From Methanothermobacter sp. (GTDB taxonomy: Archaea > Methanobacteriota > Methanobacteria > Methanobacteriales > Methanothermobacteraceae), in assembly GCF_030055425.1 (NCBI RefSeq), contig NZ_JASFYE010000001.1, positions 178,901-242,900 of the forward strand: a stretch of DNA of 64,000 bases, given 5' to 3'. Each line of letters starts with the position of its first letter. Within the stretch, counting starts at the first letter, position 1. The translations under genes and the position numbers were made by a program. This document shows, piece by piece, positions 39,066 through 46,803 of the stretch. Below the pieces are notes generated by a model. The model was given only the letters and a program-made list of their open reading frames with translations, did no database searches and was not told where the DNA came from.

Positions 39066-39566
39066 CTATCCTGAACCTTCTTTCAGCGTCCTGATGTAGT
39101 GGTTTACAAGGCCGCCGTCCTGGAGTATCGATAACATGTAGTCGTTGAAGGGTTTCATCTCATACCTCTTTCCAGTGGTGAGGTTCTCAATGAAGCCACC
39201 CTTGAGATCAACAGAGATTTCATCGCCGTCCAATGCATCCACACGAGCCATTATAACTGGAAAACCGATGTTTATGGCGTTCCTGTAGAATATCCTGGCA
39301 AAGGATTCTGCAATGATCGCGGCGACACCTGCATGTTTAAGGGCTACCGGGGCCTGTTCCCTCGATGACCCACAACCGAAGTTGCGCCCGGCCACTATTA
39401 TGTCGCCCTTCTTCACCTCAGAGGCAAACTCTGGCCTTGCACCCTCCATTACATGGGATGCGAGTTCATCAAGGCTGAAGGTCCGCAGGTAACGGCCTGG
39501 TATGATCATATCTGTATCTATGTTATCACCGAATCTCCATACTCTTCCTCTTATAACTTCTTCCAT
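39066..39566 (-). CDS. hacB: Homoaconitase small subunit (coenzyme B biosynthesis)
   Basis: 166 aa from the ATG at 39566 (GGAGGG 7 nt upstream; a longer frame to 39584 starts inside that site). Swivel subunit of an aconitase-type hydro-lyase: GRNFGCGSSREQAP is the family signature. The substrate-recognition loop after IPGR is YLRT (residues 26-29). In the described methanogen pair, homoaconitase small subunits carry YLRT while isopropylmalate isomerase ones carry YLV-type loops, so this is assigned to homoaconitase: chain extension of 2-oxo acids toward coenzyme B. The large subunit gene is not in the window. Followed by the methanopterin gene mptG. Confidence 0.85.
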   Translation of the reverse strand: MEEVIRGRVWRFGDNIDTDMIIPGRYLRTFSLDELASHVMEGARPEFASEVKKGDIIVAGRNFGCGSSREQAPVALKHAGVAAIIAESFARIFYRNAINIGFPVIMARVDALDGDEISVDLKGGFIENLTTGKRYEMKPFNDYMLSILQDGGLVNHYIRTLKEGSG

Positions 39567-39584
39567 CCATATTCCCTCCTGCAC

Positions 39585-40577
39585 TCAGGATCTAACCACA
39601 GAGGCCCCCCTGTTACGGCCGCCTGTTACAAAGGCCTGCCCAGAATCCATTATCTCCAGAACCGCATCCACCATATCATCGGCTTTCCCATCTGTGACCG
39701 CGTATACTGCGGGGCCAAATGAACTCATACCCGCCCCTGCGGCCCCTGCAGCCAACATAGCATCTATTAAACTGTCAATCAGTGGGTCCTGAAGATCCCT
39801 TTCAACCTTCTTGAATCCTATCTTCTGTATTTCATTAACAGATTCCCCAAAGGCCTCAATGTCCCCTTCAATGACCGAGGGCATCATCTTCATGAGAATT
39901 ATGTGTGATAGCCTTTCAACCTCCCTTAGGGGTATGGGACAGTATTCCTGGAATATGTTAACCTCCCTTTTCCCTGAAACTGATCTCTCAATGTGGGGTA
40001 TTGCAACCACGATATTCCAGTCCTCAGGAAAATCATATCTTGCAATAACCGGTGGTGGGGATGCGCGTGAGGCAGATGACGGCAGGAAGTCAGATTTTTC
40101 ACGCGTACTGTGTCCTGCATCCACTATGAATCCTCCGTCCTCAAAGGAGGCGACACCTATACCTGATGTTCCACCCCTACCAACAATCGCTGCCAGTTCC
40201 CTTGCCCTTATACTGACGCCATGGTACTCTGTGATGAGCTTTGCGGCTGCAAGGGATATCTGGGTTCCCGATCCCAGACCAGAGTGGGCCGGGAACATGC
40301 TTTCAACCTCGAAGATGAATTTCTCATCACTGCCAATGTAACTGAGGATTCTCTCTGCAGCCGCTGTTATCTTTGAAACATATTCCTCCCTCAGTGCATT
40401 TTCCACTTCACCAGTGAACTCCACACTGATTTCATCTGAGGCCTCAAGACCCATAATGAGTTCAGGCTCCCTGAGGGTGATTCCCACCCCTCCATCGAGG
40501 CGTCCCCTACTCCCATTGAGGTCTATGAGGGTGAGGTGTAACCGAGACGGTGTGTTGATGATCAATTCAATTACCAC
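39585..40577 (-). CDS. mptG: Beta-ribofuranosylaminobenzene 5'-phosphate synthase
   Basis: 330 aa GHMP-fold enzyme that joins PRPP with 4-hydroxybenzoate or 4-aminobenzoate and releases CO2, the first committed step of tetrahydromethanopterin synthesis. Signatures: NTPSRLHLTLIDLNGSRGR at the N-terminus, where the family's dihydrogenated substrate loop lies, and the GHMP loop PAHSGLGSGTQISLAAA. Start uncertain: GTG at 40577 overlaps the GGAG site, and TTG at 40565 is better spaced. It follows the tetraether-synthase-like gene by about 8 nt, implying one transcript. Confidence 0.93.
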   Translation of the reverse strand: MVIELIINTPSRLHLTLIDLNGSRGRLDGGVGITLREPELIMGLEASDEISVEFTGEVENALREEYVSKITAAAERILSYIGSDEKFIFEVESMFPAHSGLGSGTQISLAAAKLITEYHGVSIRARELAAIVGRGGTSGIGVASFEDGGFIVDAGHSTREKSDFLPSSASRASPPPVIARYDFPEDWNIVVAIPHIERSVSGKREVNIFQEYCPIPLREVERLSHIILMKMMPSVIEGDIEAFGESVNEIQKIGFKKVERDLQDPLIDSLIDAMLAAGAAGAGMSSFGPAVYAVTDGKADDMVDAVLEIMDSGQAFVTGGRNRGASVVRS

Positions 40578-40585
40578 TCCTTCGA

Positions 40586-42061
40586 TTATCCTTTTAGAGG
40601 TTTTGAGAACTGCTTTTCAACCTCTGCCCTGTGTATTGAGTTCATGGTGCAGAATGGGACTATGCGTCCATCAGGCAGGGCGTAGTGTATGACGCACCTT
40701 TTAACCCTCTCAATATCAAAGTTCCATGGGTCCATGAAGTGCATGCATGATACCAGGAGGGTGTTGTAGTGGAATTCTCCAAGGGCACTGTATGATCTCT
40801 CCCTGAATACTGAGGTTAGTATGCTCTTTATATCAACAGAATCCGGCGCCTTTGATTTGTCGAGGGTTTTTGGAAGTTCTATTGTTGATTTTGCAATCAA
40901 TTTGGCCTTTGCTGCTATTCCACCCTTCTCAAGTTCCTCCCGGCCCTTATCGAGTATCTCAAAGAACCTGTCAACATCGATGAACCTTGTTATTGGGATT
41001 ATTTTTCCGTCCTCTATGAATATGTATGTGGCTGTACCGCAGTGCTGGTGGCATGTGAATGTAACCTGGGGTTCACCCTCAATGGCCGCAACGAAGTCAG
41101 ATATTGGGCGGACAGATGATGCCGGGTAGAAGTCCTCCACAGCTATCTCTGAACCTGTCTGTTCCTCCACGAGTTTCTGGAAGTCGGGTATTGTTATGCG
41201 CTGCTCCTCAACTCTGTCTGCGGGGGTTCTTCCTGCAAAGGACACCGGCTGGAAGTTAACACCCCTTATTATATCGATGTTTTCAATGGCGAACCTTATT
41301 ATGTCCCCCACCTGGCTGTCATTGAGGCCCCTGACAAGTGTGGGGACCAGCACTATCCCAAGACCTGCCTTTCTGCAGTTTTCTATTGCCTGTAATTTCA
41401 GTGGCAGCAGATTTTTACCCCTGGATACAATGTAGGGCTCCTCTGTGACCCCATCGAACTGGAGGTAAACCGTGTTGAGCCCTGCCTCCCTGAGTTCCGC
41501 TGCGAGTTCAGGTTTCCGTGCAAGTCTCACACCATTTGTGGCTATCTGGACATGGGTGAAGCCCTCATCCCTTGCGAGTTTAACGAGCTCCACTATATCC
41601 TTCCTCACAGTGGGCTCACCACCCGCGTACTGAATGGCAGGGGTGGGTACGGGTCTGTTTCTGCGGAGATTTCTGAGCATCTCCCTTATCTCTTCGTAGG
41701 TTGGCTCATAAATGTACTTTGAGACGGCAGCATTGGCAAAACAGATTGGACATTTAAGATTGCATCGATTAGTAACATCAATAAGACCAAGAACAGTGTG
41801 GCTCTCATGTTCGGGACAGAGGCCACAGTCAAGTGGGCATCCCTTGAGGGGATCCGTCTGCGGGTTAAGTAGCCCCTCACCTTCCTCATCATAATTTTCT
41901 GCCTTATGGTAGACCTCGGAATTGCTCCAGTAAACACCCTCAAAGTTTCCGTGCTCCGGGCATTCCTTCCTTATTAGAACCCTGCCCTCGTCCTCAAAGA
42001 CCTCTGCATCGACGGGTCTGAGGCACTCAGGGCAGAGACTCCTTGTTCTCTTTATTACCAC
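40586..42061 (-). CDS. tes: Tetraether lipid synthase (Tes)-like radical SAM protein
   Basis: 491 aa from the GTG at 42061, chosen because AGGTGACT lies 4 nt upstream; a GTG at 42070 lies in that site. Radical SAM core motif CNLKCPIC (Cys100, 104, 107). It also has an N-terminal CPEC/KECPEHG set (Cys10, 13, 34) and CPLDCGLC (Cys75, 79, 82), so more than one metal site, plus a conserved C-terminal Cys region (TCHQHCG). This multi-cluster layout is that of M. jannaschii MJ0619, first described as a methanopterin methylase and later shown to be tetraether lipid synthase, which joins two archaeol tails into GDGT. Methanothermobacter makes tetraethers. Adjacent to mptG (same strand) and carS (divergent). 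Which role it plays here needs biochemistry; I favour Tes. Confidence 0.85.
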   Translation of the reverse strand: MVIKRTRSLCPECLRPVDAEVFEDEGRVLIRKECPEHGNFEGVYWSNSEVYHKAENYDEEGEGLLNPQTDPLKGCPLDCGLCPEHESHTVLGLIDVTNRCNLKCPICFANAAVSKYIYEPTYEEIREMLRNLRRNRPVPTPAIQYAGGEPTVRKDIVELVKLARDEGFTHVQIATNGVRLARKPELAAELREAGLNTVYLQFDGVTEEPYIVSRGKNLLPLKLQAIENCRKAGLGIVLVPTLVRGLNDSQVGDIIRFAIENIDIIRGVNFQPVSFAGRTPADRVEEQRITIPDFQKLVEEQTGSEIAVEDFYPASSVRPISDFVAAIEGEPQVTFTCHQHCGTATYIFIEDGKIIPITRFIDVDRFFEILDKGREELEKGGIAAKAKLIAKSTIELPKTLDKSKAPDSVDIKSILTSVFRERSYSALGEFHYNTLLVSCMHFMDPWNFDIERVKRCVIHYALPDGRIVPFCTMNSIHRAEVEKQFSKPLKG

Positions 42062-42225
42062 AACAGTCACCTGTTTAATTTGAATATTAAAATCATTGAA
42101 TCAGTTCACTGGCAAATGTTATATACTTGATGTATGAAATTACAAACCCATGCATCCTCTTCTTGGAGCCTGAACTGACAGGTTCTTACGGTATCTCAAA
42201 TTAAATAATTTTGCGAGGTGTACAA
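42062..42225. promoter_or_regulatory. Divergent promoter region, tes / carS
   Basis: 164 nt between two genes of membrane lipid synthesis. On the plus strand GTTATATAC near 42118-42126 is a good TATA box; the transcript start would be near 42150, with a leader of about 75 nt that contains TTCTTGGAGCCTGAACTGAC. GAGGTG at 42215-42220 is the carS ribosome site. On the minus strand AGGTGACT (42068-42061) precedes tes and a TTAATTTG TATA-like element lies near 42075-42085. Confidence 0.5.
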
Positions 42226-42741
42226 GTGAATACCGATATTATCAATATTATAGATGTTCTCTATGTAATATACTTTATGTTACCGGCCTACATGGCAAAT
42301 ATAAGTGGTCTAGTATTTGGTGGGGGCAGACCCCTTGACATGGGTATCACCCTTCGTGATGGCAGACGCCTCATGGGGGACGGGGTAACCTGGCGTGGCA
42401 CCGCGGCTGGCACCCTTATTGGACTGCTTGTGGGATTAATTCAGGGTCTTCTTTCAGGTTCAGTTATAACGGGAGCAATAACTGGGCTTTTACTTGGATT
42501 TGGAGCCCTTATGGGAGATGCTGCAGGTAGTTTCATTAAACGAAGGCTTAAAATAGATAGGGGTAGGCCTGCGCCCATCCTTGATCAGCTTGACTTCGTT
42601 GCCGGGGCCCTGATACTGGTATCTCCCCTGAGGGTACTGCCAGTTGATTACATCATCCTTATAATGCTCATCACACTGGTCCTTCATCTTTCAGCAAACA
42701 TCATAGCATACCTCATCGGTATGAAGGATGTCTGGTACTGA
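42226..42741 (+). CDS. carS: CDP-archaeol synthase
   Basis: 171 aa integral membrane protein with about five membrane helices. It transfers CTP to unsaturated archaetidic acid (digeranylgeranylglyceryl phosphate) to form CDP-archaeol, the precursor of all archaeal phospholipid head groups. The cytosolic loop GDGVTWRGT and the segment GALMGDAAGSFIKRRLKIDRGRPAP carry the charged residues common with CDP-alcohol synthases (CdsA-like). Start GTG at 42226 (GAGGTG 5 nt upstream). It shares its promoter region with tes, which acts on the same lipids. Confidence 0.92.
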   Translation: MNTDIINIIDVLYVIYFMLPAYMANISGLVFGGGRPLDMGITLRDGRRLMGDGVTWRGTAAGTLIGLLVGLIQGLLSGSVITGAITGLLLGFGALMGDAAGSFIKRRLKIDRGRPAPILDQLDFVAGALILVSPLRVLPVDYIILIMLITLVLHLSANIIAYLIGMKDVWY

Positions 42742-42764: not shown

Positions 42765-42855
42765 AAAAGTTTAAGGGTCATGAAAGAATAACCCCACACC
42801 ATTTAATTAAGATAGAACAGAACTGCTGACCCTCAAAAGTTTAAGGGTCATGAAA
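42765..42855 (+). repeat. Direct 21-bp repeat pair, period 70
   Basis: AAAAGTTTAAGGGTCATGAA plus one A occurs at 42765-42785 and at 42835-42855. Copy 2 lies in the C-terminal codons of the M14-like gene (minus strand); copy 1 lies beyond its stop, so the gene end appears to have been duplicated. TGACCCT (42827-42833) and AGGGTCA (42844-42850) also form a hairpin. Confidence 0.7.
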
Positions 42856-43481
42856 AATACTTCATATGCTGATGACCACTCAGGGACCTCATAGACCAGT
42901 GCCGGGTAACCCGCTGCAGCAAGTGGCCTTGAGAATAGTCTGGCAGATGAACTCCTGTATCTTGTTTTTCCTGAGACCGGATAGTAATTGAAGCCTTCCC
43001 TCCTTAGGCTCTCAGCGATCCGCACTGAGGGTTCATCCATCTGTGGCGTTGCAACATAGAACCCCTCACCATAACCGGGTGCATGGGCATGGGCGATTAT
43101 CACAAGGTCATAATCGGATTTCATTACATCTGGAAGGATGTGGGTGGCTGCAAGGCCCTCACCATTGGCCCTGCCCCTGCTGTAATCCATGGGACTGTCC
43201 TCAACATTTATACTGTAAAGTGCAACCTCCACAGGGAGAAGTGCGAATGCCCTGCTGGCCCACTGGACTGGCGCAATTGAAACCTCCTCCCGTGGATGTA
43301 TCCCTGTTACAACCGCTATCTTTATGTTCTGCTTCCCGTAATGTGCATAGACATCCTTTGTAACATATCCCCTGGAATCCGAACCGATGGTTGAATAGGC
43401 AGATAGGTTCATGATTACAAGGGGGGTTACAATGAGGAGGAGAATCCCGGCAATTAAAATCCTTGATTTCAACTCAACCAT
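42807..43481 (-). CDS. Membrane-anchored M14-like zinc peptidase, putative
   Basis: 224 aa. N-terminal membrane anchor (about residues 7-27) with the rest outside. HPREE (His62, Glu65) resembles the HxxE zinc motif of carboxypeptidases and aspartoacylase-like enzymes; His131 and His133 in IIAHAHAPGYGEG could supply the second zinc ligand; Glu198 in VYEVPEWSS sits where the M14 catalytic Glu is expected. No exact family known to me. An extracellular peptidase on pseudomurein peptides is a plausible guess, in line with the similar secreted protein at 60634-61425. It begins 4 nt after mfnF and has no ribosome site, so translation is probably coupled. Confidence 0.7.
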   Translation of the reverse strand: MVELKSRILIAGILLLIVTPLVIMNLSAYSTIGSDSRGYVTKDVYAHYGKQNIKIAVVTGIHPREEVSIAPVQWASRAFALLPVEVALYSINVEDSPMDYSRGRANGEGLAATHILPDVMKSDYDLVIIAHAHAPGYGEGFYVATPQMDEPSVRIAESLRREGFNYYPVSGKTRYRSSSARLFSRPLAAAGYPALVYEVPEWSSAYEVFFMTLKLLRVSSSVLS

Positions 43482-43485
43482 CCGT

Positions 43486-44511
43486 CTATATGTTCTGGAG
43501 GTAATCCTCCATCAGGAGTGCTGTGCCGACTGCAGGGGCCACCACACACTCATCCTCCGTCAGGAATTCGTCCATGGTTCTGCATTTAAGGTCAAGAATT
43601 TCAGCGGCCCTTTTTGCAAGAACATTCATTCCAAGGCCAGTGGCGATTACCTCATCAAGATTCTCGCGCTCTGAAACCTCTGCGATTCCCTCTGCTATCT
43701 TGAGTATCTGCTGGTGGTAGATGTACTCTGACACCTCAAGTATATCCTCTGGTTCGAGGAGTTCCAGATCTGCGCATAGGACACGGGTTATCCTGAGCAT
43801 ACAATCCTCAATGGATTTCCCTGAGCCATCCGGTGTGCTGCAGCTGTAGTCGGATTCCCTGATATTGCCGAGTACCCTGTGAATATCGGCCGTTATTGCA
43901 AAAAGTTCAGATGAAACCCTGAACCATTTATCATGCAGGGGGACCCTGTCGACTATCGTTGCCACATTGGTTCTCAGTGTACCCGTGTAGACAAGTTCAC
44001 CGGTTGATAGTCTTTCGAGGTCATTCCTTCCCCTTGCAGCCTCGAATCCTTCTTTGACGGGTATTATGTCTGTTGTTGTGCTTCCCACGTCCACCATTAT
44101 GCAGTCGCTGCTCATTGCCGAGGCTATCTGTGAGGTGGCAACCCAGTTGGCTGCAGCCACATCCATGGGGTCCCTGACCGCCTCGGAGGCATCCACCATA
44201 CCAGAGAGGCTCACGTATGCCACTGGAACATCAAATGCACTCTGGACACTTTCAACTATGTCGATAACTCCCTCTGCCTTGCTTGGGTAGGCGTCCACCA
44301 GTTCCGCTGTCATGCACACGCCAACGCCATCAAGATCATCAAGATCATCCCCTGTAAGCTCAATCAGGGTCTCTGAAAGTTCATCACGTTTAAGCCACAT
44401 GGGGAGGTACCTGAAGTCCACACGGACTTTCTTCATTTCCCCATCGGCTCCAAACTCTATTAATGCCATGTCAGTGTTTGCTCCTCCAATATCAAATCCC
44501 GCGATCTTCAT
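43486..44511 (-). CDS. mfnF: Methanofuran biosynthesis protein MfnF (hydantoinase-like fold)
   Basis: 341 aa from the ATG at 44511; GGAGTTGACC stands just upstream, and the frame further up (to 44634) is the shadow of mfnD. Actin-like ATPase fold: AGFDIGGANTDMAL near the N-terminus, SDCIMVDVGSTTTDIIPV in the middle. The family is annotated as H4MPT-linked C1 transfer protein; MJ0863 of M. jannaschii was shown to couple the aminomethylfuran unit (as pyrophosphate) with gamma-glutamyltyramine. Next to mfnD, which makes that gamma-glutamyltyramine, so the two consecutive steps are encoded side by side. Confidence 0.9.
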   Translation of the reverse strand: MKIAGFDIGGANTDMALIEFGADGEMKKVRVDFRYLPMWLKRDELSETLIELTGDDLDDLDGVGVCMTAELVDAYPSKAEGVIDIVESVQSAFDVPVAYVSLSGMVDASEAVRDPMDVAAANWVATSQIASAMSSDCIMVDVGSTTTDIIPVKEGFEAARGRNDLERLSTGELVYTGTLRTNVATIVDRVPLHDKWFRVSSELFAITADIHRVLGNIRESDYSCSTPDGSGKSIEDCMLRITRVLCADLELLEPEDILEVSEYIYHQQILKIAEGIAEVSERENLDEVIATGLGMNVLAKRAAEILDLKCRTMDEFLTEDECVVAPAVGTALLMEDYLQNI

Positions 44512-44530
44512 CAAGGTCAACTCCATACTC

Positions 44531-45511
44531 TTAATTCCCCGGTTCAGTCCCCCTGCGGATATCCACAAGCATGCCCCTCGGACCTTTTCTGAAGTATGCT
44601 GTCCCATTGAATTTAACACGCTCTGGGAGTTCACCCATAACCGATTGAAGGACCATATGTCCCAGGTTTCCCTCTGAAATCCTTCTGAGGCCTATGTAGG
44701 GTGTCGTGATCCTGGAGTTTATTTCAACAACATAGGGTTTATCTGCAAGTATCATGTCCACACCAACATAGCCCCTCAAACCCTCAATGGATTCCACAGC
44801 CCTTCTGGCAACCCTGAAGGCATCATCCATCATCCTGTGATCCACAGGGGTGACGCCCCCATCATACTCCAGTGAATCCCCCCTTATGATGATATTCTGC
44901 CTGTTGAGGCTCAGTGGAAGTGCTCTTTTTCCATCGGAGAGCAGGCTCACGCTGACGCTTTCGCCCTCCACAAATTCCTGTATTATCATATTCTCAGGGA
45001 TTTCAGGGAGGTTCCCTGGCTCAAGTATCCTTATACCCTGGCAGGCAACACCATCTGCGGGTTTTATGAGAACCTTTGATGGTAGTTCTCCAGGATCATC
45101 CCGTTCATAGGTCTTTATTAGAGGAACCGCACCCTTGAGGACCCTGTAGGTCATCCTCTTATCTGAACATATGCGGACCGCCTCACTGCCTGAGCCGAGA
45201 AGAAGTACCCCTGAGTCCTCAACCAGTTCTGTGAGTTTATAGAGTTCCATATCCTCTTCTGCTGCGATGAATATGCACGCATCAAATCTATGAAGGTTTT
45301 CTCTGAGCCATTCCCTGAGGGAACCTGTGATGATTGTTGGCCTGCAGTTGGATTGGATTTCAATATCAGAGAACTTCTCAGAGAGAAGAAACTCAATTTC
45401 AAAGTCCCTGAAATCAGCCAGAAGAGCCTCAAGCATTGAACGACCCTCAAGGAATATCTCAGGGTCCTCAATCCCTGAGGCAGTAGCATATTCAAATACA
45501 AGTAGTTTCAA
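44531..45511 (-). CDS. mfnD: Tyramine-L-glutamate ligase MfnD
   Basis: 326 aa ATP-grasp enzyme that joins tyramine with glutamate to gamma-glutamyltyramine in methanofuran synthesis. ATP-grasp features: [33 protein letters not shown], and [17 protein letters not shown] with the Mg ligands. The start is TTG at 45511, which overlaps the TGA of wecC by 4 nt (TTGA); GGGTGTGGGG precedes it. Lies 19 nt from mfnF. MfnD of M. jannaschii (MJ0815) has the same fold; the assignment is supported by the neighbour mfnF. Confidence 0.9.
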
Positions 45512-46803
45512 GGGCGCCCCACACCCCGGAATACTATGCCATGTTCTCTGAATTCTTCAGGGTCCAGAACGGGTCTGGTGCAGATGAATATCCCACCAAC
45601 TATCATCTCAGGGGTTATTTCAAGATATTCAGAATGATCCGTCATGAGAACCACACAGTCAGATTCAAGGGCCTCCTCAAGTGAGACAGGTTCAACACCC
45701 ATCTCCATTATCATGTCAGGGTCAACATGTGGGTCGTTGACAATGACCTCAGCCCCCTCTGATATGAGTGCTGCCACAAGGGGCCTTGTTGGTGTCTCCC
45801 TTGCATCTGCAACGTCGCCCTTGTAGGCCACGCCAAGGATACCCACCCGTGACCCTGCAAGGTCCCGGCCAGCTGATTCAAGTGCATCCCTTATGATGTC
45901 AAGGACATGGAAGGGCATTGATTCATTGACCTCCCTGGCTGTCCTTATGAGTCTTGCTGATACACCATGTTTCTCCGCCATCTCAACTATGAAGTAGGGG
46001 TCTATTGAGAGGCAGTGGCCCCCCACACCGGGTCCTGGGGTGTGGAGGTTCACCCGGGGGTGGTGGTTTGCTGCCTCGATGGCCTTTATGGCGTCTATGC
46101 CTAGTGACTCGCATATAACTGCAAGTTCATTGGCGAGGGCTATGTTGGTATCCCTGTAGGTGTTCTCCATGAGCTTAACCATTTCTGCTGTTATGATGTC
46201 ATCCACAACTATTACCTCGCCCCTTGTGACCTTACTGTAAAGTTGAGCGGCCATCTCTGCACTTTTCCCATCTATGCCCCCTATGACCCTTGCGTTGTTC
46301 TGCATTTCATGGAGTGTGTTGTTTGGAAGGGCCCTTTCAGGTGTGTATGCAAGTCCAAAGTCCCTTGATGCGCGTAAACCTGTTTTTTCAAGTATGGGGA
46401 GTACCACGTTCTCGCAGGCTCCTGGAGGTACGGTGCTCTCTATAATCACAAGGTCGCCCTTCTTAAGACCCTCTGAGATGGTCTCTGTCGCGGATATCAC
46501 AGCAGAAAGGTCAGACGTATTGTCGCTGTTAACAGGTGTCGGTACCACCACAACCATTACGTTTGATTTCCCTGCAGCGCTAACACCATCAGCAGTCGCC
46601 TTCAGTTTACCTGATCCAACAACTTCAGCCACAAGTTCATCAAGGCCTGGTTCCGGGATGGGTGATTTTCCTATGTTGACCTTATCCACCGTTTCTTTGT
46701 TTATATCAACTCCGGTAACATCAAATCCCGCCCTGGCAAAAAGTGCTGCTGTTGGAAGACCTATGTGTCCAAGGCCAAATACTGCTATTCTGTAATTGTC
46801 CAT
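45508..46803 (-). CDS. wecC: UDP-N-acetyl-D-mannosaminuronic acid dehydrogenase
   Basis: 431 aa from the ATG at 46803 (GGAGGA 6 nt upstream). Oxidises UDP-ManNAc to UDP-ManNAcA with 2 NAD+. N-terminal Rossmann motif [19 protein letters not shown]; catalytic Cys in [14 protein letters not shown]-terminal UDP-binding domain with [15 protein letters not shown]. It works with wecB just upstream. ManNAcA is used in archaeal surface glycans. A link to the talosaminuronic acid of pseudomurein is conceivable but would need other epimerisations. Its stop overlaps mfnD by 4 nt. Confidence 0.94.

Follow-up and report, generated by a model that had tools for sequence, protein, structure and literature searches.

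The gene at positions 40586..42070 (minus strand) of the window, by which we mean the whole 64,000-nt stretch of Methanothermobacter sp. DNA that was analyzed, almost certainly specifies a tetraether lipid synthase (tes; GDGT-MAS/MJ0619 family) and stands head to head with carS (42226..42741, plus strand), the gene for CDP-archaeol synthase; the two products would catalyze a late and an early step, respectively, of one lipid pathway. The same pairing was found in a second archaeal phylum, the Hadarchaeota. The Tes protein would belong to the radical SAM enzymes and contain, besides a rubredoxin-type iron, two auxiliary [4Fe-4S] clusters; it would abstract hydrogen from the terminal carbon of one saturated archaeal lipid chain and then of a second, holding one of them as a cluster-sulfur adduct before both are joined into the biphytanyl chains of GDGT, and CarS would activate digeranylgeranylglyceryl phosphate with CTP, enabling head-group addition.

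The deduced product of tes scored 759.7 bits against the NCBIfam Tes equivalog NF045702 (cut-off 450), matched PF04055 and PF23545 in Pfam and aligned over its whole length with the GDGT-MAS of M. jannaschii in PDB 7TOL (E 2.9e-189); its identity to MJ0619 is 57% over 483 aa. Cys clusters occur as CX2CX20CX2H at residues 13-40 and as CX3CX2C at 78-85 and again at 103-110, with C344, C459 and C474 probably forming, together with M443, the residues of the C-terminal cluster. The alignment of these motifs with MJ0619, which the earlier note had proposed, matches ligand for ligand: all aligned metal ligands of the rubredoxin, N-terminal, radical SAM and C-terminal sites are identical. In MJ0619 numbering, the residues kept are C9, C12, C33 and H36 of the rubredoxin site; C73, C77 and C80 of the N-terminal cluster, plus the nearby H83; the radical SAM triad C98, C102 and C105; the SAM-contact residues Q268, S271 and R275; the labile ligand M439; and Y459. 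Ligand residues were invariant or nearly so among 65 Tes homologues. Among the C-terminal cysteines of these homologues, C338, C455 and C470 were invariant and C438 and C456 variable; the first three are probably the cluster ligands and the other two non-ligands.

Because an AlphaFold model of the product (pLDDT 88) superposes on 7TOM along the full chain (TM 0.93, rmsd 1.9, 496 columns), the helical cap forming the lipid pockets is predicted to be present at fold level. The equivalog score, the identity to MJ0619 and the structural match agree with the earlier suggestion that this radical SAM protein with extra Cys clusters is MJ0619/Tes-like, and we regard it as a bona fide tetraether synthase whose catalysis is predicted from sequence and model. 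Pfam continues to call the PF23545 domain (residues 5-49) 'HMPTM N-terminal zinc ribbon', a name that goes back to the methanopterin methylase assignment, since withdrawn; the corresponding region of MJ0619 binds rubredoxin-type iron.

No second Tes gene accompanies this one in its genome: four other matches were considered and rejected, being 23-35% identical and restricted to the radical SAM core, and they include a MoaA-like protein, a neighboring pair of radical SAM/SPASM-like proteins and a short member of the radical SAM superfamily. In this genome, a prenyltransferase of the UbiA family (PF01040, 124 bits) comes directly after two adjacent radical SAM/SPASM-like proteins (L003 and L004; G000:C2 131800-135000), in an arrangement that suggests an uncharacterized prenyl-lipid or RiPP-like cluster.

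The enzyme function of the tes type was known biochemically beforehand, and this locus adds one member. MJ0619 was at first taken for a pterin methylase, an activity that Lloyd et al. could not corroborate (PMC9433317); it forms macrocyclic archaeol and GDGT in vitro, and its structure contains a hydrophobic lipid tunnel (PMC9433317). M. maripaludis given tes homologues produces GDGT (Zeng et al., PMC8941075). The question of a lipid versus a pterin substrate was therefore already settled outside the window by published work on MJ0619 and Tes. The protein studied here has the same four metal sites and fold as MJ0619/GDGT-MAS of Methanocaldococcus jannaschii (7TOL, 7TOM) and belongs to the same family as the Tes of Methanosarcina, Methanococcus and Sulfolobus (PMC8941075), but differs from the GMGT synthase Gms (PMC11186832), which likewise links sp3 carbons of tetraethers by radical SAM chemistry but forms a separate radical SAM subgroup and takes finished GDGT as its substrate. 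Methanothermobacter marburgensis, for which a single Tes gene was noted (PMC8941075), produces GDGT (PMC8941075, PMC9027985), and by analogy with this species and with MJ0619 the gene described here would form biphytanyl chains.

The identification of the divergent neighbor as CDP-archaeol synthase, made in the earlier note, is borne out by three concordant matches: NF003114 (218.8 bits, cut-off 148), PF01864 (247 bits) and the CarS of Aeropyrum pernix in PDB 5GUF, which aligns with residues 8-168 of 170 (E 1.6e-38) in a full-length match with no difference of note.

The carS ORF extends over 42211..42741 (plus strand), and its GTG at 42226 sits 5 nt after a Shine-Dalgarno-like GAGGTG. The tes ORF (42070..40586, minus strand) has 494 aa counted from its first GTG; a sequence AGGTGA overlaps this codon and lies 5 nt ahead of the fourth one (GTG, 42061). 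Since the Shine-Dalgarno spacing favors both, we place the start of carS at 42226 and that of tes, as the likely one, at 42061. The spacer of 164 nt previously ascribed to the head-to-head pair is exact for these starts (42062..42225; 155 nt if tes begins at its first GTG), and it was aligned in eight members of the genus. Also as previously described, mptG, for the beta-RFAP synthase of the methanopterin pathway (39585..40577, minus strand; NF040726 467 bits, cut-off 328), lies just downstream of tes on the same strand, with a gap of 8 nt, in what appears from the sequence to be an operon-like arrangement; the gene run continues with the homoaconitase small subunit HacB2 (39066..39584, minus strand; NF040625 285.7 bits, cut-off 230).

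On the other side of the pair, and convergent with carS, are an ORF of 224 aa (42807-43481, minus strand), with no family match in Pfam or NCBIfam, and a gene for an MfnF-like, H4MPT-linked C1 pathway protein (43486..44634, minus strand; TIGR03123 421.6 bits, cut-off 244), whose score against the MfnF model of NCBIfam, NF040623, was below the cut-off of that model. The true start of this last gene is probably around 40 codons inward, at the motif MKIAGFDIGG, because the extra N-terminal codons are unmatched in most relatives. An exact 21-nt direct repeat, AAAAGTTTAAGGGTCATGAAA, occurs just 3' of carS (42765-42785 and 42835-42855, 70 nt from start to start), its second copy falling within the 3' end of the 224-aa ORF; it is possibly a terminator-like unit.

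We examined 120 genomes of the order, counting linkage where tes and carS share one contig. The earlier note had named loss of the pair in relatives as evidence against its reading; the two genes were adjacent in 106 out of 106 such loci, 94 of them in divergent orientation and the other 12 codirectional, with 11 of the codirectional ones coming from a single genus (g6) in which carS is inverted. A genome from a sister order of the same class (G120) keeps the divergent pair as well, plus much of the surrounding block. The spacer exceeds 400 nt in several genera of the order, although these lengths are upper limits wherever the carS match was split; in G076, carS is at 45612-46145. Three near-complete genomes of the order lack tes, carS and mfnF jointly, which looks like one missing assembly stretch. 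The gene mptG adjoins tes in 53 of 116 loci and is gone from its side in most of genus g4 and in all of g5, where the tes/carS pair is intact, and mfnF is linked to carS in all 107 cases in which both are on one contig. A second mptG-like gene is present in 16 genomes of the order (e.g., G002, G018, G023, G032, G033, G039, G043 and G086), often with one copy adjoining tes and the other elsewhere.

These counts bear on the claim that the neighborhood favors a membrane lipid function over methanopterin methylation. Within the order the claim did not stand, and we abandoned the argument for a lipid function from the neighborhood alone: mfnF is linked to carS as tightly as tes is, with mptG only 8 nt below tes, and therefore the gene context in the order cannot separate a lipid role from a role in C1-cofactor synthesis. 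It is the block as a whole that shows constant linkage, which points toward C1 carriers no less than toward lipids. What stood was the part of the claim that can be drawn from the Hadarchaeota (see below), where tes is paired with carS and neither mptG nor mfnF was found in the vicinity; this pairing and the published biochemistry (PMC9433317, PMC8941075) carry the case for lipid over pterin. The original assignment of MJ0619, as a class D radical SAM methylase of C7/C9 of the methanopterin precursor, could still appeal to the adjacency of mptG, to mfnF beyond carS and to the Pfam domain name, but it is at odds with the lipid tunnel and the uncorroborated pterin activity of MJ0619, with the departure of mptG from tes in g4 and g5 while tes and carS stayed together, and with Hadarchaeal tes genes beside carS and with mptG not found nearby. 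We consider it very improbable for this protein and dropped it on the published biochemistry and the Hadarchaeal context.

Among 80 tes loci from across the archaea, carS was found near tes in Methanobacteria and Hadarchaea only, being absent from the examined flanks in Methanocaldococci, Methanosarcinales, Methanoperedens and Methanofastidiosa; unlike the locus described here, those of Methanocaldococci have neither carS nor mptG in the flanks examined (up to 10 kb on each side). In the Hadarchaeal phylum (28 genomes), divergent tes and carS genes occur in 13 loci from 12 genomes, with gaps mostly of 77-117 nt (including a second copy at a contig end in G128), of about 840 nt in five loci and of 3.3 kb in one. 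Elsewhere in the phylum the two genes are 34 kb apart (G155) or on different contigs. A search with the MptG profile did not find mptG in two Hadarchaeal loci, and in the remaining ones no ORF around the pair was recognized by eye as mptG or mfnF. In the five loci with the gap of about 840 nt, a TrmB-family regulator gene (PF01978, 81-89 bits, cut-off 25.6) lies in this space, directly adjoining carS and encoded on the same strand as it. In one genome (G159), tes is followed by a gene of the geranylgeranyl-reductase family (TIGR02032 215.6 bits, cut-off 158.8).

Two well-separated types can be distinguished among the Hadarchaeal Tes proteins, each with support of 100/100 and with scores, 728 and 739 bits, that exceed the Tes cut-off. 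Type I groups with the Methanobacterial Tes (85/95), although the data do not reject one Hadarchaeal clade (p 0.29). Both types adjoin the same CarS lineage, the CarS proteins encoded beside type II tes being non-monophyletic (p 1.3e-4). Comparison of G146 (type I) with G147 (type II) showed identities of 88% for CarS, 80% for TrmB and 49% for Tes, and G146 and G136 have a common far flank, with a thermosome gene downstream of tes. In L154 and L163, the two Tes types fill the same slot between carS/trmB and the thermosome gene. The type II arrangement is present in three genomes. The simplest reading of these sequences, which are metagenome assemblies in which chimeras are possible, would be that the tes type was exchanged at a fixed site while carS and the flanks stayed.

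The adjacency of tes and carS might mean nothing for regulation, and be the inherited synteny of a slow-changing block (hacB2-mptG-tes/carS-mfnF). The linkage of mfnF to carS, as tight as that of tes, and the retention of the whole block in the sister order speak for this reading, as does the spacer itself, in which no promoter stands out in the direction of tes. Against it, tes and carS stand head to head in the second phylum too, where CarS is of a different lineage (a clade joining the CarS found beside type I tes with those of Methanobacteria is rejected, p 6e-75), the flanking genes are others and tes was apparently replaced in place. On balance, we put inherited synteny at a little short of evenly poised. 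Alternatively, tes and carS may be a co-regulated unit, under a local TrmB-family protein in Hadarchaeota and a trans-acting factor in Methanobacteria. The position of the TrmB gene in the divergent gap of five genomes argues for this, as does its presence beside the type II tes of G155 even without carS; however, the gap contains no regulator gene in seven Hadarchaeal loci or in the Methanobacteria, and the usual targets of TrmB are sugar genes. At our own locus there is no TrmB regulator, and the one strong TrmB of the genome is on another contig, beside a rubredoxin/hydroxylamine-reductase-like gene. We accordingly hold co-regulation of this kind to be possible, while leaning against it.

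A scan of the spacer with a hand-made BRE/TATA consensus predicted a core promoter for carS, GCAAATGTTATATA (42112..42125, plus strand), scoring 11.2 of 11.7, a value matched by 5 of 3000 shuffles; there are three strong sites of this class in the whole window, counting both strands, and the site is kept in eight out of eight members of the genus. Transcription of carS would be predicted to begin near 42147-42152. In the tes direction, the best score of the same scan within the spacer was 8.5, at background level. A co-regulated divergent promoter unit would carry a recognizable core promoter for each gene, and carS alone has one; the spacer is a shared region with a visible, predicted carS promoter, and a shared or bidirectional promoter for tes is a guess. 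No Rfam match to the spacer was obtained up to E 1, and a scan for sigma-70 promoters, a model off target for archaea, gave results at chance level.

The CarS step precedes head-group addition and saturation and thereby supplies both diethers and tetraethers, and Tes works on saturated lipids. The earlier note had proposed the locus as a site where the ratio of dialkyl to tetraether lipids is set by co-regulation; yet because CarS feeds both lipid classes, joint expression of tes and carS would scale both and tend to hold their ratio. We infer, more weakly than the functions of the two genes, that the arrangement may have been kept because it couples the expression of the gene for lipid supply to that of the gene for tetraether formation, which would keep the share of tetraethers steady and not shift it. 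Published ratios within the genus disagree: M. thermautotrophicus, with 87% diethers, kept a steady diether/tetraether ratio when H2 and nutrients were limiting (PMC4302986), whereas archaeol varied between 20 and 80% in M. marburgensis (PMC9027985); regulation at the tes-carS locus is left unsettled by either.

The gene context may be new: all through the class Methanobacteria carS stays head to head with tes, and it does so again in Hadarchaeota, there sometimes with a regulator gene in the gap and with one Tes type apparently swapped for the other. The text of PMC8941075 mentions no carS, operon or neighbor of tes, and the literature searched, subscription papers being outside its coverage, held no mention that we could find of the tes-carS pairing. 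This literature search likewise yielded no paper on the locus tags MTH831/MTH832. It is a tentative and rather unlikely proposal that tes-carS constitutes a recurrent head-to-head regulatory unit in two phyla, of multiple origins or kept through replacement of tes, in which the Hadarchaeal TrmB controls both genes. If true, this TrmB would be a first transcriptional regulator dedicated to the synthesis of tetraether lipids in archaea, and its action on both genes would raise the issue of how the archaeal tetraether content is set, with a bearing on GDGT-based palaeothermometry.
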